DNA from: Bolinopsis microptera
Taxonomy: Eukaryota; Ctenophora; Tentaculata; Lobata; Bolinopsidae
NCBI RefSeq assembly: GCF_026151205.1
Contig: NC_087072.1
Location: 23,391,603 to 23,455,602 of the forward strand
Direction of reading: 5' to 3'
Length of the DNA stretch: 64,000 nucleotides
Of the stretch, positions 14,401 to 59,347 are shown piece after piece. The translations under genes were made by a program, and so were the position numbers. The notes under the pieces are model-generated. The model saw nothing but the letters and a program-made list of their open reading frames with translations, ran no database searches and was not told the origin of the DNA. Every line of letters starts with the position of its first letter. The stretch's first letter is position 1.

Positions 14401-17400
14401 TGGGTGTAAGGTGGCCCTTAGTCAAGGAAGGTATAGATGGCGGCACGACAAGGTTCTGAAGCAGATCTCTGAACAGGTTGTCTTCCATTGTGATCGCCGA
14501 GTGAACACTTATAAGAACAAGGCCGGCGATGGAAAGCAGTTCATTGATTTTGTTCCTGCTGGGAAAAGAAAAGCAGGTACAGACGACCGGAAGGAGAGTC
14601 GTGGTTTTGGGATCCTGAGTGGGTATCGGGATTGGATAGTGCTGTCAGACCTTGAGGGGCAGCTTAAGTTTCCCAGTGAGATTGTGGAAACACGGCTGAG
14701 GCCGGACCTTGTGATATTCTCAAGGTCGGCAAAGACAGTTATTTGGTGGGAGCTAACAGTACCATCTGAAGAGCGGATCGCTGAATCGCACGAGTACAAG
14801 CTCGACCGATACAGCGGTCTGCAGGCTGAGATTCAGGCGAAAGGTTGGTGCTGTTATAATGCCGCAGTCGAAGTTGGAGCTAGGGGAGTGGTTGCGCAGA
14901 GTTTGGAGAGAGCTGCGAGGAGGATTGGTTTTAGGGGAAGAGAGCTGAAGAAGCTGGTACGGGACAGCGGGAAAGAGGCAGCCCACTGTTCCAGATGGAT
15001 TTACTTGTTATCGAGAAAGAGGGAGTGGGAGTTCAGGAAGGTTGGAGCTTGAGAGTTCACTATAACATCTAGAGGTACCATAAACGTTATCTCGTCGCCA
15101 ATTGCGAGCTCTAACGGGTCTCCTCAAGTGACTCTCGGATCAGATGGTGGTTCAAGGGTGGACTGCTGGGGCGCCTGACAGGAAACCGTATTGCGATTAA
15201 AGCCCCGAAACGGTGTCAGGTTGGTAACTGATGATTCTGATCCATGCTCCTGTGAGTTTGCTGTTGTATCTCAACTCGCTAAACTGAGGCATCTCCGCAT
15301 CTTGGGTGAATATGCGTACATCTTCATACTAAACCCAGGTGTGGCATGTGTCAGTGAATACGGGCGAGCGGATGCAATAGCGAAGGTGGTGTGGCAAGGC
15401 CTAAAAGACACAGTCAGATAGTTGTCAGCTCGCTGACTGTAAGGGAGAAGGTATATCCGTATTTCGCTGCTACTGATGCAGTCCTTGATCTGGCAATCAA
15501 GGCTTCTCTGTTTTTCGTCTAACTATGTACCGTTGGGCTTGTGGAACCCGTAGGGGGGACATACATAGGTTGGAATGGTTTTGTGCACCAAGAGGAGTGA
15601 GGGAATGAGGGTTGAAGAGATAGAGAGCTAGAGAGTTGTTAGGGTGGTTAGGATCAGTAGGTGAAGTGTTTGGTTAGAGCGTTCTGTTTTTGCTGTATAG
15701 CATTTTAGTCACTCCGCAGTTTATTAACTGTGTCTCAACTCTACTGATTCTGTGTTAGTAATCTGTGTTATTAATGGTACTGATTCTGTGTTAGTAATCT
15801 GTATTATTAATGGTACTGATTCTGTGTTAGTAATCTGTGTTATTAATGGTACTGATTCTGTGTTAGTAATCTGTGAACTTATTAATGGTACTGATTCTGT
15901 GTTAGTAATCTGTGTTATTAATGGTACTGATTCTGTGTTAGTAATCTGTGTTATTAATCTTGTGTATTTATTCTCTTTTATTCTGAGATAAAGTGTTAAA
16001 ACGCTTGCTTCAGGCTCAAACCCTTCACACAAATTCCACGACCTGTTTTATTTCTGTGAGGTATTCTAATCCACCTTATTTAGGTTCATCGCCAATCTGA
16101 CTGGTTAACAGGTAACTTTTAGCATCATTTCGCGGAACCTGAGTTCTCTCACTTCAAACTTAAGCTCATGTACAATGTACAATGTACAATGTACATTAAC
16201 AACATTCACACGAAACACAAGCGGAACAGGTTTAAAACCTCATGCACGTTAACAAGGACATAATATATTATAGCAGTGTAAGTAACACTGTGAACACATA
16301 CTTTACATATTGTAAAATAACTGAATCTGAAGATTGTTCATATCACAGTTGAGTGTGTCCTATATCCTAGCACCTTGACTAAAATGCCGGTACACAGGGT
16401 GGGCAGTTACTTCTAGCCACCATGTATAGCGTAAACCCGGACCTATCTTGTAAGTTTGCTCCCTCAACAAAACAAAACAATTTTTTCATACCACTTACCT
16501 CGCTATCCGAATCTGCAAAGACAGATTTGAAGAGGTCGACATTATCTCCTATCCTATCCTCCAACTTCCGCTCATCTTCAGCCACTGCTGAGGGCCCTGG
16601 AGCACCACGTGACACACTGTTATTACCACGTGTTGCGTCACGTGACACACTGTTATTACCACGTGTTGCGTCACGTGACACACTGTTATTACCACGTGTT
16701 GCGTCACGTGACACACTGTTATTACCACGTGTTGCGTCACGTGACATGGAGGGGGTGTTGTCGGGGTGCTGGGATACTGAGCGTGCTTCTTCTTCTGGAG
16801 ATTTTACCTGAAATGGAGCGGGTTCTGGGTAGTGCAACAGGCGACTGAACATTGTAAGAAGACCCCAGCTCCGCCATTCGTTATTAAACAACAAATATAC
16901 ATAATGCTCACAATCTGATAATATGAGATAGCAAAATCTGACTATGAACTGTTTTAAAACTATAGATAGGTTCCTATACTGTGGGCTAATACCTGTGATG
17001 TTGAGGCAGCAGAAGTAGTAGTGACTATCCTGCTGAATCTTCTTATTGTACCCACACTTTGTATACTAAAATACAGGTCAGTTAGCACTCAGCTATATTC
17101 AAATTTTAAATTTAATCAGATTATTACATTTAAATGATTTAATTACAATATGATCATTATATCCTACTTTTCTCCACGAAACATTAATTAATTATGCAAA
17201 TTTTAGAAATTTTTTCCATTATAATGCACTAAGAGGCTAGTTATAGTGGATACACTAAATTTGGGGGCCATCCCCCCCCGGCCCCCCCCCCCCCCCCCCC
17301 CCAAATTAAATAAACCGGAAATTAATAATTATGCATGAATTTAATCTCTTATAATATGGATGATTTTCTTATAACCACGAATCAGAAGCATCTATAAACA

Positions 17401-25690: not shown

Positions 25691-25933
25691 ACATAGTGTC
25701 TCTTCGTTTTCAACCACAACTAGAATGGTAGCTTAGGATGTTAGTTTTGACTTCTGATCACGCCTTTCTTACCTTTTGTGACAGATTACATTTAACCGGG
25801 TTTACCCTTTCTAGCAAAATGTCAAGCACACCAGATTAACCGATTGGAGCGGAGAGTTGCGGATCAGTGGCAGCAGACTATCGTCCAATCAGTAAGTATT
25901 TATTTTTGTTATTTATTAAGTATTTATTTGCAA

Positions 25934-28900
25934 GTGTAATTGAACTGAAGTGATAGCTTAGGAACCATAATTCACAACATTCTGCCGACTCAAAACTTTG
26001 AAATAGTGACCAGAATTGATCGGTGATTCAGTTTTGAAGTTTAAAAGTGTAATTGAACTGGAGTGATAGCTTAGGAACCATAATTCACAACATTCTGCCG
26101 ACTCAAAACTTTGAAATAGTGACCAGAATTGATTGGTGATTCAGTTTTGAAGTTTAAAAGTGTAATTGAACTGGAGTGATAGCTTAGGAACCATAATTCA
26201 CAACATTCTGCCGACTCAAAACTTTGAAATAGTGACCAGAATTGATTGGTGATTCAGTTTTGAAGTTTAAAAGTGTAATTGAACTGGAGTGATAGCTTAG
26301 GAACCATAATTCACAACATTCTGCCGACTCAAAACTTTGAAATAGTGATCAGAATTAATTGGTGATTCAGTTTTGAAGTTTAAAAGTGTAATTGAACTGG
26401 AGTGATAGCTTAGGAACCATAATTCACAACATTCTGCCGTATCAAAACTTTGAAATAGTGACCAGGATTGATTGGTGATTCAGTTTTGAAGTTTAAAAGT
26501 GTAATTGAACTGGAGTGATAGCTTAGGAACCATAATTAACAACATTCTGCCGACTCAAAACTTTGAAATAGTGACCAGGATTGATTGATGATTCAGTTTT
26601 GAAGTTTAAAAGTGTAATTGAACTGGAGTGATAGCTTAGGAACCATAATTCACAACATTCTGCCGTATCAAAACTTTGAAATAGTGACCAGGATTGATTG
26701 GTGATTCAGTTTTGAAGTTTAAAAGTGTAATTGAACTGGAGTGATAGCTTAGGAACCATAATTAACAACATTCTGCCGACTCAAAACTTTGAAATAGTGA
26801 CCAGGATTGATCGGTGATTCAGTTTTGAAGTTTAAAAGTGTAATTGAACTGGAGTGATAGCTTAGGAACCATAATTCACAACATTCTGCCGACTCAAAAC
26901 TTTGAAATAGTGACCAGAATTGATCGGTGATTCTGTTTTGAAGTTTAAAAGTGTAATTGAACTGGAGTGATAGCTTAGGAACCATAATTAACAACATTCT
27001 GCCGACTCAAAACTTTGAAATAGTGACCAGGATTGATTGGTGATTCAGTTTTGAAGTTTAAAAGTGTAATTGAACTGGAGTGATAGCTTAGGAACCATAA
27101 TTCACAACATTCTGCCGTATCAAAACTTTGAAATAGTGACCAGAATTGATTGGTGATTCAGTTTTGAAGTTTAAAAGTGTAATTGAACTGGAGTGATAGC
27201 TTAGGAACCATAATTCACAACATTCTGCCGACTCAAAACTTTGAAATAGTGATCAGAATTAATTGGTGATTCAGTTTTGAAGTTTAAAAGTGTAATTGAA
27301 CTGGAGTGATAGCTTAGGAACCATAATTCACAACATTCTGCCATATCAAAACTTTGAAATAGTGACCAGGATTGATTGGTGATTCAGTTTTGAAGTTTAA
27401 AAGTGTAATTGAACTGGAGTGATAGCTTAGGAACCATAATTCACAACATTCTGCCGACTCAAAACTTTGAAATAGTGACCAGGATTGATTGATGATTCAG
27501 TTTTGAAGTTTAAAAGTGTAATTGAACTGGAGTGATAGCTTAGGAACCATAATTCACAACATTCTGCCGTATCAAAACTTTGAAATAGTGACCAGGATTG
27601 ATTGGTGATTCAGTTTTGAAGTTTAAAAGTGTAATTGAACTGGAGTGATAGCTTAGGAACCATAATTAACAACATTCTGCCGACTCAAAACTTTGAAATA
27701 GTGACCAGGATTGATTGGTGATTCAGTTTTGAAGTAAGAAAGTGTAATTGAACTGGAGTGATAGCTTATGAGCTATAATTCACAACATTCTGCCGTCTCA
27801 AAACTTTGAAGTAGTGACAAGAATTGATTGGTGATTCAGTTTTGAAGTTTTGAAGTGTAATTGAACTGGTGTGATAGCTTAGGAACCACAATTCACAACA
27901 TTCTGCCGTCTCAAAACTTTGAAGTAGTGACAAGAATTGATTGGTGATTCAGTTGTGAAGTTTAAAAGTGCAATTGTGGTAATTTCTAACAACTATATAG
28001 TAGCTAACTTTATGCTCAAGTTTTATTTACTTACCATGACCACGTTATTAGCTTAGGAACCATAATTCACAACATTCTGCCGACTCAAAACTTTGAAATA
28101 GTGATCAGAATTAATTGGTGATTCAGTTTTGAAGTTTAAAAGTGTAATTGAACTGGAGTGATAGCTTAGGAACCATAATTCACAACATTCTGCCGACTCA
28201 AAACTTTGAAATATTGACCAGAATTGATCGGTGATTCAGTTTTGAAGTTTAAAAGTGTAATTGAACTGGAGTGATAGCTTAGGAACCATAATTCACAACA
28301 TTCTGCCGGCTCAAAACTTTGAAATAGTGACCAGGATTGATCGGTGATTCTGTTTTGAAGTTTAAAAGTGTAATTGAACTGGAGTGATAGCTTAGGAACC
28401 ATAATTCACAACATTCTGTCGTATCAAAACTTTGAAATAGTGACCAGGATTGATTGGTGATTCAGTTTTGAAGTTTAAAAGTGTAATTGAACTGGAGTGA
28501 TAGCTTAGGAACCATAATTAACAACATTCTGCCGACTCAAAACTTTGAAATAGTGACCAGGATTGATTGATGATTCAGTTTTGAAGTTTAAAAGTGTAAT
28601 TGAACTGGAGTGATAGCTTAGGAACCATAATTCACAACATTCTGCCGTATCAAAACTTTGAAATAGTGACCAGGATTGATTGGTGATTCAGTTTTGAAGT
28701 TTAAAAGTGTAATTGAACTGGAGTGATAGCTTAGGAACCATAATTAACAACATTCTGCCGACTCAAAACTTTGAAATAGTGACCAGGATTGATCGGTGAT
28801 TCAGTTTTGAAGTTTAAAAGTGTAATTGAACTGGAGTGATAGCTTAGGAACCATAATTCACAACATTCTGCCGACTCAAAACTTTGAAATAGTGACCAGA

Positions 28901-30998
28901 ATTGATCGGTGATTCTGTTTTGAAGTTTAAAAGTGTAATTGAACTGGAGTGATAGCTTAGGAACCATAATTAACAACATTCTGCCGACTCAAAACTTTGA
29001 AATAGTGACCAGGATTGATTGGTGATTCAGTTTTGAAGTTTAAAAGTGTAATTGAACTGGAGTGATAGCTTAGGAACCATAATTCACAACATTCTGCCGT
29101 ATCAAAACTTTGAAATAGTGACCAGAATTGATTGGTGATTCAGTTTTGAAGTTTAAAAGTGTAATTGAACTGGAGTGATAGCTTAGGAACCATAATTCAC
29201 AACATTCTGCCGACTCAAAACTTTGAAATAGTGATCAGAATTAATTGGTGATTCAGTTTTGAAGTTTAAAAGTGTAATTGAACTGGAGTGATAGCTTAGG
29301 AACCATAATTCACAACATTCTGCCATATCAAAACTTTGAAATAGTGACCAGGATTGATTGGTGATTCAGTTTTGAAGTTTAAAAGTGTAATTGAACTGGA
29401 GTGATAGCTTAGGAACCATAATTCACAACATTCTGCCGACTCAAAACTTTGAAATAGTGACCAGGATTGATTGATGATTCAGTTTTGAAGTTTAAAAGTG
29501 TAATTGAACTGGAGTGATAGCTTAGGAACCATAATTCACAACATTCTGCCGTATCAAAACTTTGAAATAGTGACCAGGATTGATTGGTGATTCAGTTTTG
29601 AAGTTTAAAAGTGTAATTGAACTGGAGTGATAGCTTAGGAACCATAATTAACAACATTCTGCCGACTCAAAACTTTGAAATAGTGACCAGGATTGATTGG
29701 TGATTCAGTTTTGAAGTAAGAAAGTGTAATTGAACTGGAGTGATAGCTTATGAGCTATAATTCACAACATTCTGCCGTCTCAAAACTTTGAAGTAGTGAC
29801 AAGAATTGATTGGTGATTCAGTTTTGAAGTTTTGAAGTGTAATTGAACTGGTGTGATAGCTTAGGAACCACAATTCACAACATTCTGCCGTCTCAAAACT
29901 TTGAAGTAGTGACAAGAATTGATTGGTGATTCAGTTGTGAAGTTTAAAAGTGCAATTGTGGTAATTTCTAACAACTATATAGTAGCTAACTTTATGCTCA
30001 AGTTTTATTTACTTACCATGACCACGTTATTAGCTTAGGAACCATAATTCACAACATTCTGCCGACTCAAAACTTTGAAATAGTGATCAGAATTAATTGG
30101 TGATTCAGTTTTGAAGTTTAAAAGTGTAATTGAACTGGAGTGATAGCTTAGGAACCATAATTCACAACATTCTGCCGACTCAAAACTTTGAAATATTGAC
30201 CAGAATTGATCGGTGATTCAGTTTTGAAGTTTAAAAGTGTAATTGAACTGGAGTGATAGCTTAGGAACCATAATTCACAACATTCTGCCGGCTCAAAACT
30301 TTGAAATAGTGACCAGGATTGATCGGTGATTCTGTTTTGAAGTTTAAAAGTGTAATTGAACTGGAGTGATAGCTTAGGAACCATAATTCACAACATTCTG
30401 TCGTATCAAAACTTTGAAATAGTGACCAGGATTGATTGGTGATTCAGTTTTGAAGTTTAAAAGTGTAATTGAACTGGAGTGATAGCTTAGGAACCATAAT
30501 TCACAACATTCTGCCGTATCAAAACTTTGAAATAGTGACCAGGATTGATTGGTGATTCAGTTTTGAAGTTTAAAAGTGTAATTGAACTGGAGTGATAGCT
30601 TAGGAACCATAATTAACAACATTCTGCCGACTCAAAACTTTGAAATAGTGACCAGGATTGATTGGTGATTCAGTTTTGAAGTAAGAAAATGTAATTGAAC
30701 TGGAGTGATAGCTTATGAGCTATAATTCACAACATTCTGCCGTCTCAAAACTTTGAAGTAGTGACAAGAATTGATTGGTGATTCAGTTTTGAAGTTTTGA
30801 AGTGTAATTGAACTAGTGTGATAGCTTAGGATTCACAATTCACAACATTCTGCCGTCTCAAAACTTTGAAGTAGTGACAAGAATTGATTGGTGATTCAGT
30901 TGTGAAGTTTAAAAGTGCAATTGTGGTAATTTCTAACAACCATATAGTAGCTAACTTTATGCTCAAGTTTTATTTACTTACCATGACCACGTTATTAT
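25934..30998. repeat. 113-bp satellite with 1982-bp higher-order repeat
   Basis: Monomers start GTGTAATTGAACTGGAGTGA at 25934, 26047, 26160, 26273 and so on, an exact 113-bp period, over 40 copies in total. Monomer variants (GACTC or GTATC, CACAAC or AACAAC, GATTGG or GATCGG) recur in the same order 1982 bp apart: about 26400-28382 matches 28383-30365. Each block includes an 80-bp non-monomer spacer beginning CAATTGTGGTAATTTCTAAC (27971-28050, 29953-30032, and a third at 30918-30998, where it runs into unique sequence). A last partial block (30366-30998) lacks about 1019 bp, close to nine monomers. Repeated 78-82-codon frames in it are not genes. Confidence 0.93.
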
Positions 30999-42700: not shown

Positions 42701-45700
42701 GTGTTCACAATCTCACTTCGCTGGATACCTGTCTTACTATTCCACCTAGAGGTAAGTTTACATGCTCCAAATGTCAAACAAATTTGCAGGATCATTCTAT
42801 GTTTGTGTTAAAAATACAGCACCTCTTCTGTAATTTTAATCATTAATGATCATTAGTTCTACGAGAAGTTGTAAAAAGTAAGTAAACAATAAATGAAACG
42901 TCATCGAACAATACTCCCGTTGAGCTCCTCTTCAATGAAATTTTAACTGTGTAAGTCTAAATATCAATATTCTCACACCGTACGTAAGGCTTCAGCCTTC
43001 ATGCCATTTATACATTAATATCGAATAATAAACATATAAACCTAACCAATGTAACGTGCGTTCTTTCTAGATCTTTGTACAATTTACAGGAAGATTATTT
43101 ATCTACACTCGCCCTGTTCCATCCTCCGCGTTTCTTTAATTTCTATGCAGTATTGTGTGCGAAGAGTACATTTTTATTACGCATTCGCCAATGTATAATT
43201 GTATAACTTAGATATTGTCTAATGTTGAGTCAAAGTAGTAAATTGAGAAACATTTTCAGCTGTTAAACAATTGTGTAGTGCAGTGGAGGCTGTGAAGGAT
43301 TTGCACTGTATCTCCGTTACCGATATTCCTTTTACGAGATGTCCTACTGGAGGTAAAGTTTCCAATTTATGTATCAAAACTATGATTTATGGTTGCAATC
43401 AATGTATATTGATTTGCTGAATTTCTCAACGTGCAGTTTGCTATCTGCATTATAAAAAGGATAGGAGGTAAGCGTGGCGATTAACGTAAAACCCGGGGCT
43501 TTTTAATAATTTTATGTCTAAGGTGTTCTTAGGACTGAAATCTCAATGGTCATCAAAAGGGTCGATGGTCATAAATTAGGCGTGACCTAGTGAATATATT
43601 GATCGATATGACCGATTTCGCGAATTGTGCCACCCAGCATCCGAGTAAATCTAAAGATTAAAGAGTGCGACTGTTACTTTCCTTTCATCCTTTGTCGCAA
43701 CAGCATGGTTATCGTATACTCTGAACGATAAGTTACCAGCTCCAAAACAGACTAATATAAGAATTCACTAATGCAATGTAAGGTACAATAAAACTCGGGT
43801 TTAATTAACTGTTTTAACAACTAAACAGTTTACTGTTTGTTAATAGCTGGGATAGCTATTTATTAACAATGCAAGGTTCACATTGCCCATTACTGAGCTC
43901 TCTTTTATTAATATCTTTGTCAAGGTTCTGCTGTTCAAAGAAGTAAATATTAAAAAGGGTGGGGGAGGGTGATTCGGGGCTGTATTGTATTTCTTTATAC
44001 ATCATAATAACATACCGGTAAGACAGAAAGAAGGCTGTTCAGTAGGTATGAGAACGCCGTCCTGACAAGTAGCCTGTTGAGTACTGAGAGCACCCTCCAT
44101 AGTGAACCCTGGAGCACACCTCACTGTAACCTCTGTTCCGTGATCTTGGGGGAGTGGGGGTTCGGGGACTAGGTTAACGTCCCAATCTGGTGGTGGGGCC
44201 TTGCATTCCCCTGAAATAATTTAATGATTTTCCTCATTATTTTGTGTTTTCTGGCAAACCTGGACGCCATGGAATCGTAAATAATTCTAAATCCTCCAAG
44301 ATAATCATAATTGTTTAAGCAACAACAGTGACATGCAAAAGGCTTTGATAAATTAAAGGATCAACATGACCATGTCTGTCTCACCTTTACAGCTAGGCTG
44401 AACACTGTACTGGAAGCTCTGTTCAGACTCACAAGTCACTTCATTATCTCCTGTGAGAGTAAAGCCAGATGTGCAGGACACTGTTATCACATATCCTCTC
44501 TCTACAGGTAATCCAGGGGAGCTGGTCATGTGGGTCCAGGTCGGGGGTAGTCCGCTACACACTGGAGTTAAAGATTTATTGTGAGGTAGGAGCGTCTTTC
44601 TGGAAAATTAGGGAGCCTTGGATATCAGAGTTGGAAGAATTGTGGCTTGATTTAATGGGTTTAATCTATTTTCTCGACCGTAAATTGCTCATTATACGTA
44701 AAAGTAACATACTGATAAGACAAGAAGGAGGTTGTCCAGTAGATTCGAGAACCCCGTCCTGACAAGTAGCCTGTTGAGTACTGAGAGCACCCTCCATAGT
44801 GAACCCTGGAGCACACCTCACTGTAACCTCTGTTCCGTGATCTTGGGGGAGTGGGGGTTCGGGGACTAGGTTAACGTCCCACTCTATTGGCAGGACCTTG
44901 CAGGCGCCTGAAATTGTTTTTCGGTTTACCTCAATCATATATATGTTGTTTTTTTCTGTTTGGGGAAGCTCTAATACTTCTGTCAAAACTGGACATCAGC
45001 TCAAATAATGTAAGATCTTCAGAAATAATGATAACAGCTTAATCATTGGTTTTGAGTTGAAAAAAAAAAGCTTTCCAAAGTTAAGGAATCAGCATGACCT
45101 TGACTTTCTCACCTTTACAACTAGGCTGCACACTGTACTGAAAGCTCTGATCAGCTTGACAAGTCACGTGGTTATCTCCTGTGAGAGTGTAGCCAGATGT
45201 GCAGGAGACTGTTATCACAACTCCTGAATCTACAGGTAGTTCGGGGGAGCTGGTCATGTGGGTCCAGGTCGGGGGTAGTCCGCTGCACACTGTGGATTTA
45301 ATTGAGTTTAATTGTAACTCTTCTTGGACAAGATATTATAATATATATATGTGTCATTATTTTTGTGAAATTAGCAAACTTCAAATACCAAGCTTATAGT
45401 TATATCCAATCTTCACCTTCTCTCCAGATAAACTGCTCGTTCCAAGTAGAGAAAGAAAATGTTATTGTTGTGGATTGTGTAGTCCAATGGCTGTAACAGT
45501 TAGAGAATCCGTTCATATAGCTGCTTGCAAAGTTGAAGTTAAGGACTGTCGCATCATTGCATATGAGTATCAAGGAAGTTCCTGTTTTCTGGATTTTCCA
45601 TACTTTAGTATAGTCGCTTGGGATGCTCATATATTGGTTTGTACCCCATGAGTTTGTCATGCATTGCGGGATTACATATTTCCATCCAGTTGACTGGTAT

Positions 45701-48700
45701 TGAAAGAGGAAGGTCCTTGAGTCGTAGTAAACTTGAATATGTGCACCAACACTATTTCCCGTGGTTTTTACTTCTACTATTTGATCGGATGGTATGCTAT
45801 ACACTTTACTACTAATCATCGTAACCCACCCTGAGAATAAGAAATGTTAGATCTGCTGCAGGTGCTGGATATTAGTATCTAATCAGTCATATCTTTATAT
45901 TCTAATTAAAAATTGGCAGGTCAACTTTATCTCTGCAATGAAAATAAACATTACATTTACCTGGCGAGCCGTGGGACATCTTAAGCGAGAAAGCTAAGAT
46001 AACGACCAAACACGTCAAACTTTTCTTCATTTTAGAATTTCTCCATTCTAAAACGGTAAGAAATTATGTCCTCTGTATCATGATATAGGGATCACCACAT
46101 CGTGGTGGAAAATCAAATTAATATCTTATTAAAAGTAAAAATTTCCCCTATCTGATTCTTTGGATCTTAGCAAACTATTCCCCGCCCTTTTCAACGAGAG
46201 TGGTGGTTTCCAAGGAAAATAAATCAGACGGAATGAACTAGGGAAAGGGAGGCACTGAGTGGGTCTGGATCTTGCAGGAGAGAGCGTCATTCGTCCCGAA
46301 CACCTGAACCTTAGCTTCTGCGCTATAGATCTGGATACTGGCGTGGAGGTGAACCATGTTTGTTTTGACACGTGACAAATGTCCTCGGTTTTGATTGGTC
46401 AATGCTGGAAACTGATCGGTTACTTGCTGTCACGTGTCAGTATGCTGCAACCATATCTATTGTCCAAGTCTGAAACTAACGGTAAAGATGGGTCAGCTTT
46501 ACAAAAGAAAACTGGTGAGACGGAAGGGCTAACAAACAGCCATCACAAGTTAGAGCATTAGCTAGAACCTGGCTAGCTAACCTCTGTTCCGTGTACTTGA
46601 GGGAGTGTGGGTTCGGGGACTAGGTTAACGTCCCAATCTGGTGGTGGGGCCTTGCATTCTCCTGAAATTGTTTTTCGGTTTACCTCAGTCATATATAATA
46701 TGTTGTTTTTTTCTGTTTGGGGAAGCTCTAATACTTCTGTCAAAACTGGACATCAGCTCAAATAATGTAAGATCTTCAGAAATAATGATAACAGCTTAAT
46801 CATTGGTTTTGAGTTGAAAAAAAAGCTTTCCAAAGTTAAGGAATCAGCATGACCTTGACTTTCTCACCTTTACAACTAGGCTGCACACTGTACTGAAAGC
46901 TCTGATCAGCTTGACAAGTCACGTGGTTATCTCCTGTGAGAGTGTAACCAGGTGTGCAGGACACTGTTATCACAACTCCTGAATCTACAGGTAGTCCAGG
47001 GGAGCTGGTCATGTGGGTCCAGCTCGGGGGTAGTCCGCTACACACTGTGGATTTAATTGAGTTTAATTGTAACTCTTCTTGGACAAGATATTATAATATA
47101 TATATGTGTCATTATTTTTGTGAAATTAGCAAACTTCAAATACCAAGCTTATAGTTATATCCAATCTTCACCTTCTCTCCAGATAAACTGCTCGTTCCAA
47201 GTAGAGAAAGAAAATGTTATTGTTGTGGATTGTGTAGTCCAATGGCTGTAACAGTTAGAGAATCCGTTCATATAGCTGCTTGCAAAGTTGAAGTTAAGGA
47301 CTGTCGCATCATTGCATATGAGTATCAAGGAAGTTCCTGTTTTCTGGATTTTCCATACTTTAGTATAGTCGCTTGGGATGCTCATATATTGGTTTGTACC
47401 CCATGAGTTTGTCATGCATTGCGGGATTACATATTTCCATCCAGTTGACTGGTATTGAAAGAGGAAGGTCCTTGAGTCGTAGTAAACTTGAATATGTGCA
47501 CCAACACTATTTCCCGTGGTTTTTACTTCTACTATTTGATCGGATGGTATGCTATACACTTTACTACTAATCATCGTAACCCACCCTGAGAATAAGAAAT
47601 GTTAGATCTGCTGCAGGTGCTGGATATTAGTATCTAATCAGTCATATCTTTATATTCTAATTAAAAATTGGCAGGTCAACTTTATCTCTGCAATGAAAAT
47701 AAACATTACATTTACCTGGCGAGCCGTGGGACATCTTAAGCGAGAAAGCTAAAATAACGACCAAACACGTCAAACTTTTCTTCATTTTAGAATTTCTCCA
47801 TTCTAAAACGGTAAGAAATTATGTCCTCTGTATCATGATATAGGGATCACCACATCGTGGTGGAAAATCAAATTAATATCTTATTAAAAGTCAAAATTTC
47901 CCCTATCTTTGGATCTTAGCAAACTATTCCCCGCCCTTTTCAACGAGAGTGGTGGTTTCCAAGGAAAATAAATCAGACGGAATGAACTAGGGAAAGGGAG
48001 GCACTAAGAGGGTCTGGATCTTGGAGGAGAGAGCGTCATTCGTCCCGAACACCTGGACCTTCTGCGCTATAGATCTGGATACTGATGTGGAGGTGAACCA
48101 TGTTTGTTTTGACACGTGACAAATGTCCTCGGTTTTGATTGGTCAATGCTGGAAACTGATCGGTTACTTTCTGTCACGTGTCAGTATGCTGCAACCATAT
48201 CTATTGTTTAAGTCTGAAACTAACGGTAAAGATGGGTCAGCTTCACAAAAGAAAACTGGGGAGACGGAAGGGCTAACAAACAGCCATCACAAGTTAGAGC
48301 ATTAGCTAGAACCTGGCTCTGGTACTGATACTCCTAGAGAGAATACTGAACTTGGATAATCGTTACACAGTCACAAGTCTATGAGACTGCAGTTATACTG
48401 TTCCCAGCGTCTGGGGTCGTTAGCTTCAAGGGAGGTAAAGTAAGTCAGGAGGTTTACTCGCCACAAAATGTAGTTTAAACTGAGTTAGAGAGAGGGTGAT
48501 GTATATTGAGATAAATTTTTATCGATATCTGCGTCAAGGTTCTCTGTTCGAAGAAGTAAATATTAACGGGGATTGCCTGGGCCGGGGAGGGTGATTCGGG
48601 CCTTTATTAGATTTCTTTATAATTTTGGTGCTGACACATCACAATAACATACCGGTAAGACAGGAGGAAGGCTGTTCAGTAGGTTCGAGAACCCCGTCCT

Positions 48701-51700
48701 GACAAGTAGCCTGTTGAGTACTGAGAGCACCCTCCATAGTGAACCCTGGAGCACACCTCACTGTAACCTCTGTTCCGTGATCTTGGGGGAGTTGGGGTTC
48801 GGGGACTAGGTTAACGTCCCAATCTGGTGGTGGGGCCTTGCATTCCCCTGAAATTATTTAATGATTTTCCTCATTATTTTGTGTTTTCTGGCAAATTTGG
48901 ACGACGGAATCGTAAATAATTCTAAATCCTCCAAGATACTCATAATTGTTAAGCAACAAAAGTGACATGAAGTTAAAGGATTGATAAGTAAAAGGATGAG
49001 TAATGAGTATGACCATGTCTGTCTCACCTTTACAGCTAGGCTGAACATTGAACTGGAAGCTCTGTTCAGACTCACAAGTCACTTCATTATCTCCTGTGAT
49101 AGAGTAACCAGATGTGCAGGACACTGTTATCACATCTCCTGTCTCTACAGGAAGTCCAGGGGAGCTGGTCATGTGTTCCCAGGTCGGTGGTAGTCCGCTG
49201 CACACTGGAGTTAATTGGAAGAATAAATATGAGGTAGGGGCGTCTTTCTGGAAAATTAGGGAGCCTTGGATATCAGAGTTAGAAGAATTGTGGCTTGATT
49301 TAATGGGTTTAATCTATTTTGTCGATAAAGTGATCATTATACATAAATGTAACATACTGATAAGACAAGAAGGAGGTTGCCCAGTAGGTATGAGAACCCC
49401 GTCCTGACAAGTAGCCTGTTGAGTACTGAGAGCACCCTGCATAGTGAACCCTGGAGCACACCTCACTGTAACTTCTGTTCCGTGATCTTGGGGGAGTGGG
49501 GGTTCAAGGACTAGGTTAACGTCCCACTCTATTGGCAGGACCTTGCAGGCGTCTGAAATTGTTTTTTGGCTTACCTCAATCATATATATGTTTTTTTTTT
49601 TCTCTTTGGGAAGCTTTAATATTTCAGTCAAAACTGGACATCAGCTCAAATAATGTAAGATCTTCAGAAATAATGATAACAGGTTAATCATTGATTTTGA
49701 GTTGGAAAAAAAAGCTTTCCAAAGTTAAGGAATCAGCATGACCTTGACTGTCTCACCTTTACAGCTAGGCTGAACACTGAACTGGAAGCTCTGATCAGCT
49801 TGACAAGTCACGTGGTTATCTCCTGTGAGAGTGTAGCCAGATGTACAGGACACTGTTATCACATCTCCTGTCTCTACAGGTAGTCCAGGGGAGCTGGTCA
49901 TGTGGGTCCAGGTCGGGGGTAGTCCGCTACACACTGTGGATTTAATTGAGTTTAATTGTAACTCTTCTTGGACAAGATATATGTCATTATTTTTGTGAAA
50001 GTAGCAAACTTCAAAGACCAAGGTTATATTTAATTGTCACCTTCTCTCCAGATAAGTATATTGTTCCAAGTAGAGAAACTTGAAAATTGAATCGTTGTGG
50101 CTTGTGTAGTCCAATGGCTGTAACAGTTAGAGAATCCGTTCATATAGCTGCTTGCAAAGTTAAAGTTAAGGACTGTCACATCATTGCATATGAGTATCAA
50201 AGCAGTTCCTGTTTTCTGGATTTTCCATACTTTAGTATAGTCGCTTGGGATGCTCATATGTTGGTTCGTAGCCCATGAGTTTGTCATGCATTCCGCGACT
50301 ACATATCTCCATCCAGTGGAGTGGTATTGGATGACGAAGGCCCTTGTGTCGTAGGAAGCTCCAAAATATGCACCAACACTATTTCCCGTGGTTTTTACTT
50401 CTACTATTTGATCGGATGGTATGCTATATACTTTACTACTAATCATCGTAACCCACCCTGAGAATAAGAAATGTTAGATCTGCTGCAGGTGCTGGATATT
50501 TGTATCAGCTATATTTTAATTAAAAATGGACAGGTCAACTTTATCTCTGCAATGAAAATAAACATTACATTTACCTGGTGAGCCGTGGGACATCTTAAGC
50601 GAGAAAGCTAATATAACGACCAAACACGTCAAACTTTTGTTCATTTTAGAATTTCTCCATTCTAAAACGGTAAGAAATTATGTCCTCTGTATCATGATAT
50701 AGGGATCACCACATCGTGGTGGAAAATCAAATTAATATCTTATTAAAAGTCAAAATCTCCCCTATCTGAGTCTTTGGATCTTAGCAAACTGTTCCCCGCC
50801 CTTATCAAGGAGAGTGGTGGTTTCCAAGGAGAATAAATCAGACGGAATTAAATAGGGAAAGGGAGGCACTGAGTGGGTCTGGATCTTGGAGGAGAGAGCG
50901 TCATTCGTCCCGAACACCTGAACCTTCTGCGCTATAGATCTGGATACTGGCGTGGAGGTGATCTATGTTTGTTTTGACACGTGACAAATGTCCTCGGTTT
51001 TGATTGGTCAATGCTGGAAACTGATCGGTTACTTTCTGTCACGTGTCAGTATGCTGCGACCATATCTATTGTCTAAGTCTGAAACTAACGGTAAAGATGG
51101 GACAGCTTCACAAAAGAAGACTGGGGAGACGGAAGGGCTAACAAACAGCCATCACAAGTTAGAGCATTAGCTAGAACCTGGCTCTGGTACTGATACTCCT
51201 AGAGAGGATACTGAACTTAGATAATCGTTACACAAGTCTTTGAGAATGCAGTTATACTCTTCCCCAGCGTCTGGGGTCGTTAGCTTCATAAGGGAGGTAA
51301 AGTAAGTCAGGAGGTTTACTCGCCACAAAATGTAGTTTAAACTGAGTTAGAGGGTGATGTATAGTTGGACAACTTTGGTTATACTTTATTTTATATTTTA
51401 CTTGGTTCAAACTGTGCACAGTTCACACTTCACATCACGTCAAATAGTTTCAGTGTCCGAATGAACAAAGTTACATTTTTCAACCTTTTTCAGACGTTCC
51501 ACACGATCTGATTTGTAACGGACAAGTACTAGCTCTAAAGGAAAGAGGACACCCCGACAATGTGGGCCTGTTCTCTAAGTTCCACCAGAAGGGAAATGCG
51601 GTTGTAGTGTACGGATCCGCCAGTGATAGCATTAACAAAAACCTCTGGAACCCTGATAGCTTCAGCAAACATTTCGGTAGGTTTGAAGATATGGACAAGC

Positions 51701-54700
51701 AGATTTAAGATCATGGTTACAACAAGATCATAATGCTTTATACAATAATGGAGTATATATTGCTACGAAAGCATTGTTCTACTATACCTTATCTCTGAAA
51801 TCATTATAAACGAGTGTTGCAGGTAACGAGAGAGAACTGGTGATTAACACCTCTACATTGGAGGTTCACCGTATCTCCCTCAAAGACTTCTTCGACGGTT
51901 TCGCCAATGTGAACGAGCGGCCGAGGAACGAGAATGGTGATCCTATGGTCCTCAAGTTGAAGGACTGGCCGACCACCTGGGACTTCAAGGAGAAACTACC
52001 TCAATGGTAGATCAATCTTGGTTCTGTTATCTGTACATGGTACAATTTTGGCCTGACAATAACTCATTAACAGCAGAAATAATAATCTTAACTCTTAACA
52101 AGAATACGTGTAATACCCCTTTATTTTCAATTTCATAACCTCCCTTCTTATCAATCACCCTTCCTAGGTACGATGACTTCATGAGAGTTATACCTCTGAA
52201 GACATACACGCAAAGAGACGGGTTGTTCAACATAGCCCGCTACCTTCCTAACATATACTGCACTCCTGACCTTGGCCCTAAGATGTACATTGCTTACAGT
52301 AACGCTAACAACCCTAACGGTAATTATTGTCCGGTGTTGTTTTATCGTATTCTATGCAGCGTATTCTTAGTTTGAAGACCCACCAAGATCCTGCTTATTA
52401 TTACAGATTTACAGACGCTAATTAGACCAGTTGACTAGTGACTATATTATATCAGGTGTGATTTGTAGTAGTGTAGTATATTATATATTATATAGTATAT
52501 ATATACTATATAGTAATGGTAGTGTAATACGATCCCTCGTTATACACCCCATACCACAGTGCAAGTCTACATTCCAAGTGTGTGTGTAATGATCGAGCAG
52601 TAAAAACTACATGTCTTGTATTTTGAGATGTTCTCGAACATTCCACCTGCACCACCTGTTTCAATTCTTCAGAGGCTAGCACGGTGTTACATATTGACAT
52701 ATCATTCCTTCAGAGGCTAGCACGGTTTTACATATTGCCATATCATTCCTTCAGAGGCTAACACGGTTTTACATATTGCCATATCATTCCTTCAGAGGCT
52801 AGCACGGTTTTACATATTGCCATATCATTCCTTCAGAGGCTAGTACGGTTTTACATATTGCCATATCATTCCTTCAGAGGCTAGCACGGTGTTACATATT
52901 GACATATCATTCCTTCAGAGGCTAGTACGGTGTTACATATTGACATATCATTCCTTCAGAGGCTAACACGGTTTTACATATTGACATATCATTCCTTCAG
53001 AGGCAAACACGGTTTTACATATTGCCATATCATTCCTTCAGAGGCTAGCACGGTGTTACATATTGACATATCATTCCTTCAGAGGCTAGCACGGTTTTAC
53101 ATATTGCCATATCATTCTTTCAGAGGCAAGCACGGTGTTACATATTGACATATCATTCCTTCAGAGGCTAGTACGGTGTTACATATTGACATATCATTCC
53201 TTCAGAGGCTAGCACGGTGTTACATATTGACATATCATTCCTTCAGAGGCTAGCACGGTTTTACATATTGACATATCATTCCTTCAGAGGCTAGCACGGT
53301 GTTAAATATTGACATATCATTCCTTCAGAGGCTAGCACGGTGTTACATATTGACATATCATTCCTTCAGAGGCTAGTACGGTGTTACATATTGCCATATC
53401 ATTCCTTCAGAGGCTAGCACGGTGTTACATATTGACATATCATTCCTTCAGAGGCTAGCACTGTGTTACATATTGACATATCATTCCTTCAGAGGCTAGC
53501 ACTGTGTTACATATTGACATATCATTCCTTCAGAGGCTAGCACGGTGTTACATATTGACATATCATTCCTTCAGAGGCTAGCACTGTGTTACATATTGAC
53601 ATATCAGACGCTGTAAACGTGGTCATGTACGTAGGACAGTCTCAGGATGTCGTTATTAATTACGACGACGATTCGGGGTCTTCTAAATCTGGTAAGTACG
53701 TTGTCTACATTTTAAGAGAAAGAATTACAATTTTTACTAAGTTCAGGATCGTGTATGTATTCCACATGTTCAAATAAGTGAAATAAACATATCAATATTT
53801 TGATTAATTTTAATCTTTACAGATTCGTCTTTCTTGAAAAGGAAGGTTTATGCTCTCAAAGACATCTGTGAAGACACTGATGACAAACAGGTACGAATAA
53901 GTGCGATAATTACCTTTTATCAACTGAGATTTACTATTTTACTAATTTAGTTACTGACATGCAGCTAGTTTATGTCTCATTTTGTGGAACTAAAAATGTT
54001 AACCACAATTGAATTCGATACCTAATAAAAATACTGAAAACAACTTCATCGTAGTTGGAGAGGATAAGACGTGACAAATGTAAAATAGGTGCACTTTGGC
54101 ACATCTACCACCCAAACGACATCGACAAGATCCGGCACTTCATCCACAAAGTGGCTAACGAGAACGGACAGACCCTGCCGTCTGGACACGATCCAATACA
54201 CGATCAGGCCATGTACATTGATAAGAAAATGAGGAAACGTCTCTTCCAGGTAAGTGGCTTGATTAGGAACCGACTGGGGTCTGGGGTTTCGGCTCCGGAC
54301 CGGAAACGACCGGATATCAATTTATTTTCCGGTTTGAGGCTGCCGAAGATCAACAAATTTTAAGAATTTACTGCGGTTTGCGTAGCACAAATGTAGACAT
54401 TGTTCTCGAATTTATACAAAAAAAATGTATACAAGAATTTATACAAATTCCGAGCTGAGGGGCTACAAATACAATTATAAGCATTATATAATGCAGTTAG
54501 GGGGGATACAGATATGTGGTGAAAAGTTTTGGTACACAAAACCACACTAGAAAGCTCCTCGCTAGTGATATAACATAAAGCCACTCTATATATGACCCTC
54601 GCCAAATGTAGCCAGATCCAGACATGTGATTCCCTCAGGAGTACGGTGTGAGAGGTTGGCCGATAGTGCAGTGCGAGGGAGACGCTGTCTTCATCCCAGC

Positions 54701-57700
54701 AGGAGCCCCGCATCAGGTCCGCAATCTTCAGAGCTGTATCAAGATCGCTGAGGATTACGTTTCTCCTGAGGTAACTTTTGTAAAGCTCCACCGGTCACAT
54801 TTATAAATTATCTTACCATTGCTCTGAATTCACATTTTTCGTTTTTAATTTTCTTTTCTCTTAATCATATTATGTTTAAACCTTGATTTCTTGTAAACTG
54901 CTGAACTAATAATGGCAATCATTACAGCGAGTAAGCTTTTGCCTGAAGCACACTCAAGAGATCAGACACTTATCAAAACAGCATTCTAACCAAGAAGATA
55001 AACTACAGGTACGACAGTCAAAATGTAGCTTGCAAAGCGGTAAATTTATCATTAAAAACTCCCAATCCTCTAAGTTTCTTTACAGCTAGAGATTATATAA
55101 ACATTTACTTTAATGCATCCCGAGTAGTTTAAGTTAATAATAATGATATTTTAACCGAATGTCTTCACTGTTCCCAGATCAAGAACCTGATCTACCACGG
55201 AGTAAAAGAGTGTGTCTCAGTACTCCAGAACAACCTGCCCACTAAGGACCTCTGTATCTGTAAGCCTATTGAGACCTGTTCCTCAAGTACACAGTTCACA
55301 GCCCCACAACCTGACGACTCCAGAGATCTGGTAATTGAGAGACTTCAGGCTGAGATGGAGACCATCAGGAAGAACGCCACGCTCGAGAAGAAAAGTTTTA
55401 AGGATCAGCTTGCTAATAAAGAGGTTTGTTTCATTTAAGAACTGTTCTCTTCCTTTTGTTATTTGTACAAATTGGTTTTTTAAGATTTTGTTTTGCCGAT
55501 TGTGTGGCCTTTACTTTGAACTTTTTTGTCTCAAATTTTAAAATTGTTGACAGTTTCCATTTTTCAGGCTGATTTCAACAAAGCGAGGAAATGTTACGAG
55601 ATGGAAAAGCAGACCAACAAAGAACTCAGATCAAATCTTACAAAGCTAACAAAAACGAGGCAAGAAGAGCAAGCTTCTCAGAGTTTCGTCAAAGTTCTAC
55701 CGGTCTCCTATCAAACTTCGTTCAGCTCGCGTGGTCACGAGATCCAAAAACCAGAAGCGAGAGTACAGGAGCTCAGAAAGCCAGAACCTCGCCACCCTCA
55801 ACATCGGAATGTGGAGCCGAGACATTCTGAGCATTCCAAGAGATCAGAAACACGTTCTTTCGATGTCCGGAGTGCTGAAACCCTCCACAAAGCTTCGAGT
55901 TCCTCTCACACGGACCTGAAGAGAAGTCAGTTCTCAAACTTTGAACCAACTGATTACAGAAGGGCATCTTCCTCGCAAAGCTCGTCTTCCCAGCCTAGTT
56001 CCAGTAATTCAAGAGATCCGCGCCTGAAGTCAAAAATGGTAGAGAATGAGCCAGAGGTAGCCAACGCTCCGGTTTGGGGACCTCCTAGACACTTGAACAG
56101 CCGACCTACAACAGTGGTTCCAAGGTCAGCGTTCCAGGGAGTGCAACACGCTGTTCAGGACCTCAGGACCAAGAAACCGCCCCCTCAAAAGGTCCGAAAA
56201 ACTCCTGAGACTCCCGAGCCGATGGACACTAACCAGGATAGTTGTAGTCCAAGTCCAGCTGGACTGTTCGGTGATGGACCCAAGAGTAATCTGGAGATGC
56301 TGAGTGCAGTTTCATCGGTGCAGCCAAAGTGTTACCCGTCTAATAGGGTGTACGATCAGGGAGCCTCTAATTCGGAGACAGATTCAAATGAGGAGGCTCT
56401 AAACCCACAGTACGCGGGGAACTTTGCTCCAACTCCTCCAGCAAGTAAAGCTTCCGTTATTCCTGGTCCATTCAGTAGCCCTTCAGTGTCACCAGGCTTC
56501 AACCCGAAATCTCTGAACCTCCAGATTTCGTCGCCAAAACAACCGGCGATATTCTCTAAACAGCACAACCAGAAAAAGGCTACATATAACAAAGTGAAGG
56601 AAGAAATAGTGGGGAAACCCAGACAAGGGCAAGCCAGCAACAAACCAAACGCCCTCTCGGAGATATTCCCTCTACAACCTGCTTACTCCAACAACACCTA
56701 CTCCACTGTGAAACAAGCGATAACGAAGAAAGATATCAAGCCAGAGCTGCGGACACCGCCAAGTGAACGTGTCAATCCTCCCACATTCGCCCCACACTTA
56801 GCATCCTATCTCCCGGATATGCTGACCAGGTCAGCTTGTGCTCCGGACCGATCCACATGGAACACAGGGCACAGGAAGACAGTCGCATCGCCCGTTACAC
56901 CGACCATTTCACCTGCCGTCACCTCTCAAACGGTGGTCACCTCCCCTGCCACACCTCCTCCCAACCAGCTAACCCTCACTCAGCGGCAGTCTTCTTTCTC
57001 TACCCCTCCTATAGGGCGAGCTACTGACCGCTCTGTCCCGCCTAAAAACGAACAATCCCAGCAATCATCCTGTGAGCTGCAAACAAACCAGTCACTTCAA
57101 GGTGGCTCGCTTATCAGGGCGAACAACACGTTTAACCTGGATGTTCGGAGAGCAGCTATTCCAGTGAATCCTATACCGATTACAGGGACAGGTCAAAGAG
57201 CTCGAGGTTTGGGTTCTGATGCTCTGAGAGCACGATCAAAAAGTAACGAGTCTTACGCTTCCCTTAGTTCCTCCTCCCCTGATATTGCAGTGCCCCAGAA
57301 AGCTGGTGATAAACCGCCTGCTAGCGAAAGTGTAGCTTCTACTGAGTCAACTAGTGCTACTACATCTCAATCCAAAGTGGTTTCCGGTCAAGCTGAGGTT
57401 CAAGTGTCATCCAGGGACCCTAGACTTGCTCGACGGCCTTCCGGTGAAACGAAACAGAATGAAGTTGTAAAGCATCAAGATGAAACTATTACCTCTTCAA
57501 ACGAGGCTACTAACAGCAGCAGTAAACAACGTGTTGCCAAATCTGATGATTCAGTCCAGAAAACTTTGAATGTGCCTGCAGTAGCTAAAGGGTCCACTGC
57601 ACCGTCCGAAGCAAAGGAAACTTCTGAAGCTAAAGTCACTTCCACTACTACTTCCAGTTCTAAAGACACGTTAACGGAAGAGCAGAAGCGGCTGTATTGC

Positions 57701-59347
57701 CTCCCAGAGCCAGAAAAGCTGGTGATATTTGACGAAGCACTTTTGACCCGACTGAGAAAGAAACGAGGGCAGGGATCAGCTGAAGGGACCAATATTGTGG
57801 GTACTTCGAACATGAGTAGTGTAGTTGCTGTGAGCCCTGCCTCCAGCAGCATAGTCGTGAACCCTCTCCTGCGCAAGAAGGCAGCTCCGGTTCCAGCATC
57901 TCCCCCGAAAGTGCCCCGTAAACCCCATCTCGCTCACACAGTTGATGCTATTCTCAAGTCTGACAAAATACCACCAGCTAGAATGCCGCCCACGGTAGAG
58001 GTTCCTGCACCGACTTTTGACGCGTCGACTGCAGTTTCAAGATACGAAGATATAGTGAACCCTGCTTTAGCAGTGCTGTCTGGTATAACCAGATCAGCCA
58101 AACGGAGCAGGGAATCTTCTGGAAACAGTGTATCGAGTTTAGGCAACATGCCAGTTTTATCACCAATATCCCCGGCCTCCACGCCTCCTATGAGTTCTAC
58201 TCCAGGAGAGGCTCCACCCCTTCCGCCTGGATCTCCACCTCGCACTGACACTCCCCCAGCTCCACCGCCAGAACCTACTTCATTACCCACTGTTCTTCCA
58301 ACCACCACAACTCAACCTATCCTCCTCCCACCACCGGGCTCTGATGTGGTGATACCGCCCCTCCTTCTTACCCCTCCAGAGCAGACAAAACAACCGATAC
58401 TTCTACCTCCACCAGGAAAAGATCTCACCGAGCCACCCATTCTTCTCCCTCCGCCCGGTGTCGACCCAATCCCTCTTCTACCTCGCCCTGATCAGATTGA
58501 GATGTCTCCAACTGAGCCCCTTGAAACATTGACGTCTGATCGTGTTGCGTTCCCCAGAAAAAGGAAATGCTCTAAATCTTCGAACTACAGGAAACGGTCC
58601 AGCGAGACCAGCGATGACGAAGGTGGAGACGTTCAGTTGGCATCAAAAATTTGTCAGAATCAGGATACAACCCTCATCGTTAATGATTCAAAATCAGACT
58701 CGAAGCCGAAAAAGGTCAAGGACTCTCAGAAAACTCATAAGAAAAGATCATCAGATAAAGGAATCAAGTTAGATTCTTCCCAAAGTAAAAAGAAACACGG
58801 TAAAAAGGATCGACAATCCAAACACGCCTCAGCAACCAACCTGACGCCTAAAAAAGATCGTCGAAAAAAGGGGTCATCAGAGTCGGAGTCAAAATCCACA
58901 CCAGTGTCTTGTTCTAGCGAAACCACTCGAGAACGAGCACCAAAAATGAAAACTCCTCCTCCGTCGGACAGCGAGCAGAAACTGAATAAGCAGTCAGGGT
59001 CATCCTCCAGCGTGAAATCGAGGAGACGATCCAAGAACACGTCTTCAGGAACACCACCTCGACAGTGTTCGAAAGAAGAATCAGACACTGCTAGGGACTC
59101 GGAGCGGGGTTACTCGAGTAGAGACACATCTCGGAGACCATTATCAGATGACACCAGACGATCTGATCACCGGAGACCGGACGAGATTCTCCCAGCGCGG
59201 AGATCCCGAACTAGAACTACCTCCAGTGAAAGGGTGGTCCGATATCAGGAGAGACAGTCACCTGTTTTTACTAGGACAATTAATGTGGGCCGGGACTCCC
59301 AAACTGAGGTTATTAGTCACAAGAGGAAATCAAGGAGGCGAAAGTAG
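36765..59347 (+). CDS. KDM3: Giant KDM3-family JmjC histone demethylase with N-terminal C2HC fingers
   Basis: Sixteen exons with GT-AG ends and matching phases: 36765-40857, 40965-41219, 41461-41580, 42311-42442, 42662-42751, 43260-43352, 51494-51676, 51823-52006, 52168-52319, 53575-53691, 53823-53890, 54055-54249, 54639-54770, 54928-55008, 55178-55423, 55568-59347; about 3306 residues. Residues ~275-1335: ten CxxC-x(~12)-H-x(4-6)-C fingers spaced 84-141 apart. ~1490-1533: KDM3 finger [20 protein letters not shown]. ~1595-1965: JmjC, with [29 protein letters not shown] (H-x-D ~1774), [21 protein letters not shown] (third iron ligand His ~1919) and [21 protein letters not shown]3 enzymes remove H3K9me1/2 using Fe(II) and 2-oxoglutarate, and all iron ligands are present. 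Then a coiled coil (~2048-2085) and a disordered Ser/Pro/Lys-rich tail with two SRDPRL motifs (~2195, ~2662) and a basic end. The start follows a splice acceptor. The finger exon joins by phase; it could be a separate gene only if KDM3 starts elsewhere. Confidence 0.9.
44002..46030 (-). CDS. Secreted four-sushi protein, copy 3 (nested in KDM3 intron 6)
   Basis: Six exons: 46030-45961, 45830-45417, 45289-45113, 44907-44713, 44561-44385, 44210-44002, all phase 1, 413 residues. Order: signal peptide ([20 protein letters not shown]); a ~140-residue N-terminal domain with [39 protein letters not shown] and a late C..W pair; then four CCP/sushi modules alternating type A (CSGLPPTW...PSCKG) and type B ([10 protein letters not shown] or [10 protein letters not shown] ... 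PSCL). Sushi modules are protein-binding units typical of complement regulators and adhesion or lectin-like secreted proteins. One exon per module with uniform phase 1 allows shuffling. It ends SFCLTGMLL, with AATAAA on the minus strand at 43919-43914. No membrane anchor is seen. Ligand unknown. Confidence 0.82.
46361..46440 (-). promoter_or_regulatory. Candidate upstream element of sushi copy 3
   Basis: Two CACGTG palindromes (46369-46374 and 46431-46436), each in a TGACACGTG/CACGTGTCA context, bracket an inverted CCAAT box (GATTGGTC, 46393-46400). The same arrangement lies the same distance upstream of all three sushi copies, which may reflect recent duplication as much as function. Confidence 0.4.
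46573..47785 (-). CDS. Truncated sushi protein, copy 2 (nested in KDM3 intron 6)
   Basis: Exons 47785-47716, 47585-47172, 47044-46868, 46661-46573; 249 residues. The signal peptide, N-terminal domain and first sushi module are nearly identical to copy 3, about 1.75 kb away. The next module starts as type B ([18 protein letters not shown]) but stops early after HGTEVS, because the exon runs directly into sequence homologous to the upstream region of the neighbouring copy. It thus looks like the scar of an unequal crossover. It could still be secreted as a short one-sushi protein, or be a pseudogene. No polyadenylation signal was found near its stop. Confidence 0.7.
48105..48185 (-). promoter_or_regulatory. 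Candidate upstream element of sushi copy 2
   Basis: CACGTG at 48113-48118 and 48175-48180 flank an inverted CCAAT box (GATTGGTC), in the same arrangement as upstream of the other two copies. Confidence 0.4.
48639..50644 (-). CDS. Secreted four-sushi protein, copy 1 (nested in KDM3 intron 6)
   Basis: Exons 50644-50575, 50457-50041, 49933-49757, 49552-49358, 49204-49028, 48847-48639, all phase 1, 414 residues. Same order as copy 3: signal peptide [21 protein letters not shown]-terminal domain ([20 protein letters not shown]; more diverged from copies 2 and 3, with one extra codon); then sushi modules A, B, A, B with four cysteines each (for example [33 protein letters not shown]). It ends SSCLTGMLL, with AATAAA on the minus strand at 48608-48603. 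It is the oldest-looking member of the three and lies farthest upstream on the minus strand. A role in immunity, adhesion or matrix is possible but is inference. Confidence 0.82.
50970..51050 (-). promoter_or_regulatory. Candidate upstream element of sushi copy 1
   Basis: CACGTG at 50978-50983 and 51040-51045 flank an inverted CCAAT box, as in the other two copies. It is about 330 bp upstream of the start codon. Confidence 0.4.
52673..53606 (+). repeat. 41-bp array made of the KDM3 exon-10 acceptor and HxD codons
   Basis: Twenty-three units with an exact 41-bp period. Each contains CATTCCTTCAG (a consensus 3' splice site) followed by AGGCTAGCACGGTGTTACAT and ATTGACATATCA. In the last unit the same sequence is the real start of KDM3 exon 10: AG at 53573-53574, then codons for [10 protein letters not shown]. 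The first AG is at 52671-52672, preceded by a longer pyrimidine-rich stretch (ACCACCTGTTTCAATTCTTC); 53574-52672 = 22 x 41. Variation is limited (GTGTT/TTTTT, GACAT/GCCAT, CTAG/CTAA/CAAA/CAAG). Confidence 0.93.

Follow-up and report, generated by a model that had tools for sequence, protein, structure and literature searches.

A probable mirage-type minisatellite across a 3′ splice site and the HxD codons of a KDM3-type gene

Amphioxus genes can carry so-called mirages, tandem repeats that extend across exon-intron boundaries and repeat the splice signals; excerpts of two reports place them in Adh3, globins, TnC and PGBD5, the second report adding PGBD5 and citing TnC (PMC3087553, PMC3902484). 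The units of the Adh3 mirage measure 10-72 bp, and haplotypes of the BflGb6 mirage carry 6 and 3 copies (PMC3087553, PMC3902484). According to the same excerpts, splicing is undisturbed or no aberrant mRNA is seen for the Adh, globin and TnC mirages, and undisturbed splicing is a suggestion for PGBD5. Instability of length, and instability in somatic tissue, also belong to the traits of mirages. Variable internal tandem repeats in human segmental-duplication genes are likewise described, in an excerpt of PMC2812944, as minisatellites that may form novel introns at an exon-intron boundary. Closely spaced AGs are known to compete at NAGNAG and other tandem acceptors, as outlined in part of PMC2875228. 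Here we describe a minisatellite in a 64,000-nucleotide stretch of contig NC_087072.1 (the window), whose 41-bp unit covers the 3′ splice site and the first codons of an exon of a KDM3-type gene. We consider it likely that this is an array of the mirage type, in which the exon truly begins in the last copy, all earlier copies are intronic and the last acceptor is mostly used.

The array occupies positions 52667 to 53606 of the forward strand, on which all features of the gene given below also lie. Tandem Repeats Finder (TRF) returned a period of 41, 22.9 copies, 95% matches and 0% indels, and parsing resolved 23 units with acceptor AGs running from 52671-52672 to 53573-53574. TTCAG|AGGC was present in all 23 units, and so was TTCAGAGGC, which occurs 23 times in the whole window, every time inside the array, compared with a mean of 0.37 and a maximum of 3 in 100 dinucleotide shuffles. 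The unit is made up of 9 nt of intron end and 32 nt from the start of a KDM3-type JmjC exon, the His-Ile-Asp (HID) codons included. The array thus shares with mirages a repeat unit that crosses an exon-intron boundary, splice signals in the units (TTCAG|AG, 23/23) and an authentic gene section left intact at one array end, where unit 23 opens the exon. It differs from the Adh3, globin (BflGb6/BflGb9), TnC and PGBD5 mirages in affecting a KDM3 gene, in its 23 copies and in the catalytic codons within the unit, and it is known from one sequence. The human repeats are built differently, half of them lying in coding sequence with an average 30-bp unit in 4 copies (excerpt of PMC2812944), and in NAGNAG acceptors the AGs are adjacent, whereas here entire acceptors recur at 41 nt.

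The gene was reconstructed as a partial model (the 5′ part of KDM3 lies outside it) of 10 exons and nine GT-AG introns, which, when the last array acceptor is used, reads as a single open frame of 1711 residues up to a stop. The first two exons of the model span 51494-51676 and 51823-52006. The exon 5′ of the array (52168-52319, from the gene model and homology) ends in AACG|gtaatt and leaves one base of a split codon; the following intron, 52320-53574, contains the 22 non-productive acceptor copies. The fourth exon (53575-53691), which begins in unit 23 and holds the HxD codons, belongs to the JmjC region by gene model and homology, and its join to 52168-52319 forms a Glu codon split over the junction. 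Further downstream lie an exon at 53823-53890, a JmjC exon with GALWHIY at 54055-54249 and, supported also by homology, a JmjC exon with GAPHQV at 54639-54770. When the spliced JmjC region was compared with human KDM3B (5r7x), 168 of 342 aligned residues (49%) were identical at E=1.9e-98; HID aligned on HLD of KDM3B, and the downstream GAPHQV was intact and aligned to GAPHQV. The residues of the HxD...H motif, which we take to be the iron-binding triad, are therefore present, the His of GAPHQV presumably being the second iron-binding His. All seven PDB sequences at E<=0.001 were of KDM3 type, namely KDM3B (3) and JHDM2C/JMJD1C (4). Pfam JmjC matched at 1.6e-13 over residues 250-350, with the HID exon outside the match, for a query whose junctions partly departed from those of the final splice product. 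By these sequence comparisons the JmjC region is nearest to KDM3/JMJD1. The frame runs on past the JmjC region (55178-59347) into a Ser/Pro-rich C-terminal exon (1259 residues, S 15%, P 12%), for which no Pfam match was obtained at E<=0.001.

Reading frames were then followed from each acceptor. From all 22 upstream CAG acceptors a stop arises 75-930 nt ahead of the next exon junction, and among the 23 CAG|AG acceptors only the last, at 53573-53574, keeps the frame open. Units 9 and 12 carry CAAA/CAAG; the frames from acceptors 7 and 10 are longer than the others, yet stopped. When all 70 AGs between the beginning of the array and the exon donor were considered, the frame stayed open to the final stop for three exon starts (53575, 53608 and 53635), of which 53608 and 53635 fall beyond the HID codons, so that HID is retained with 53575 only. 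Transcripts with such early stops are, by the usual rule, targets of decay, and those spliced to an earlier copy would be expected to be degraded. An earlier note, made by a model from the letters of the window, had listed the 23 acceptors at 41-bp spacing, had read the unit as the acceptor and first bases of KDM3 exon 10 (the fourth exon of the partial model), HxD codons included, and had held that only the last acceptor can give active enzyme; TRF and parsing confirmed its coordinates, the alignment of HID over HLD upheld the identity of the unit, and the frame tests on the 23 CAG|AG sites and the 70 AGs agree that, of the array acceptors, an intact JmjC frame is possible from the last only.

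The last unit ends in ATATCAG (53606-53608), and an exon beginning at 53608 would be in frame yet lack HID, which could yield a catalytically dead isoform.

The earlier note had also proposed that the upstream copies act as length-tunable decoy acceptors, competing with the last site so that the proportion of KDM3 mRNA going to decay would depend on array length. This is compatible with the retention of TTCAG|AG in all 22 upstream units, each of which gives a premature stop, and with a branch-like YTNAY motif 12-45 nt upstream of 20 of these 22 acceptors and of the last one, where the motif is TTGAC, supplied by the Ile-Asp codons one unit earlier and sitting 17 nt 5′ of the acceptor. However, the same motif lies within that distance of 7 of the 9 other acceptors of the gene, compared with 21/23 in the array, and is nothing special. 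None of the 8 variable positions of the 22 upstream units falls in the 9 core positions of the acceptor, an invariance that chance could explain (P about 0.11) and that does not demonstrate selection on this core. Moreover, for the Adh, globin and TnC mirages of amphioxus the excerpts report no disturbance of splicing (PMC3087553, PMC3902484). RNA structure hiding the decoys was rejected for the array end, since a fold of 53400-53620 (221 nt) had z = 0.45 and 131 of 200 shuffles were at least as stable, and a stronger last acceptor was ruled out by the identical 30-nt contexts of acceptors 20-23. The length-tunable decoy system has no specific support, neither unusual RNA structure nor a stronger last acceptor, and is unsupported so far; we regard it as very unlikely. 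Similarly little credence is given to a functional rheostat in which decoy copy number would set the decay share and the array would in addition store altered His/Asp variants movable into the coding copy by conversion. Were this rheostat real, the dose of a chromatin enzyme would vary with a fast-mutating minisatellite.

The array as a mirage-type repeat would have arisen from a duplication of the 41-bp KDM3 segment, for which replication slippage involving a pair of TCA triplets is the probable cause. One triplet lies 5′ of the array at 52661-52663 and the other at 52702-52704, the end of the first exon copy, and their spacing is exactly 41 bp; their role as slippage microhomology is proposed from the sequence. 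Amplification to 23 copies may have followed through unequal exchange, leaving the last copy as the real exon start and the remaining 22 within the intron. The spliceosome would then mostly pick the last acceptor because it is closest to the 5′ splice site of the exon, and we infer this nearness, that is, exon definition, as the preferred reason for last-site use. That catalytic codons are repeated is a consequence of the position of this intron and calls for no explanation of its own. Several points weigh against this account. The 30-nt context upstream of the last acceptor is also that of acceptors 20-22 and of many earlier ones, so the choice of the last site cannot rest on that context. 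At two positions, the 9 intron bases ahead of unit 1 (ATTCTTCAG) depart from those between units (TTCCTTCAG), and the slippage model therefore requires two later changes. The use of the last acceptor is itself deduced from the DNA, and the cited mirage cases, as far as the excerpts go, are all from lancelets (PMC3087553, PMC3902484).

Units 1-22 show a mixed pattern of differences, which affect 8 positions. The first 38 nt of unit 23, the coding copy, are identical to those of units 20 and 21 and one base off units 1, 6, 10, 14, 17, 19 and 22, and because of this near-identity the coding exon edge may still be exchanging sequence with the array. The Asp codon GAC is changed to GCC (Ala) in 7 of the 22 upstream units (2, 3, 4, 5, 9, 11 and 18) and the His codon CAT to AAT (Asn) in unit 16, so that a catalytic codon is altered in 8/22 and there is no sign of protein constraint on these copies; the changes fit untranslated copies that are not kept as protein. 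Unit positions 20 and 31 show linked changes, with TTGAC becoming TTTAC in several units. Compensation as their cause is unproven, and the pattern looks like a single inherited variant spreading.

Tandem arrays are prone to assembly error, and the assembler may have mis-sized an array of another length. For one globin mirage, a supplement legend describes the draft assembly as apparently aberrant (PMC3087553), but the mixed variation at 8 positions and array flanks that connect into an open gene model speak against an artefact here. We consider such an artefact unlikely, although copy number may be off in this assembly. The array could also represent early intron or exon gain, its copies being recruited as new exons, as was suggested for mirages in an excerpt of PMC3087553. 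The best internal GT of the unit scores only 4-5 of 9 against the 5′ splice consensus, compared with 7 and 8 for two real donors, and the 41-bp period breaks the frame, which makes this reading extremely unlikely.

Units 20, 21 and 23, the coding unit among them, are the only ones with T rather than G before GTGTTA, which weakens a faint 5′-splice-like match.

Taken as a mirage, the KDM3 array adds a striking case to an oddity already on record and does not reveal a new mechanism. The claim that no described case was known of an array repeating an enzyme's active-site exon edge was wrong at the level of kind, as the excerpted accounts of mirages in Adh3, globins, TnC and PGBD5 make clear (PMC3087553, PMC3902484); a unit with active-site codons was not met in the mirage literature, where no search was aimed at that feature. 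Querying the open-licence literature for minisatellite, KDM3 and splicing gave a sole match, on G-quadruplex variants, and this KDM3 locus is perhaps undescribed so far. The contig collections searched for relatives were viral and prokaryotic, which says nothing on absence in animals: a degenerate array unit, in a pattern that fits 16/23 units, had 0 matches in viral_contigs, the KDM3 exon gave 6 pattern stretches there, 0 of them confirmed, and the reverse transcriptase of the window gave 30 stretches in genome_contigs, likewise with 0 confirmed. The list of mirage loci would gain the gene of a chromatin enzyme and might come to include a further group of animals; if the host lies outside the lancelets, the range of mirages is wider than the cited lancelet cases. 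The 49% identity to human KDM3B may be lower than a lancelet gene would be expected to show. With 22 near-identical acceptors ahead of the required one, the locus is a natural construct that could test the use of the first acceptor against that of the copy closest to the 5′ splice site.

Other repeats were observed in the window. A 30-bp minisatellite of 32 copies (5752-6742) seems to occupy part of a minus-strand intron and ends about 50 bp short of a likely acceptor; judged by eye, it contains no copy of the exon edge. A large array at 25932-30923 consists of three blocks of a 113-bp tandem unit, about 43 copies. One 36-bp repeat, equal to 12 codons with the open frame GTDSVLVICVIN, is found at both 13833-14154 and 15742-15958, near an open reading frame (ORF) whose zf-RVT match is weak and below the cutoff. 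Finally, the region 44000-50500 holds minus-strand ORFs that recur and match sushi at a borderline level, together with a repeatedly found ORF of ~148 residues, a pattern that suggests internal segmental duplication.
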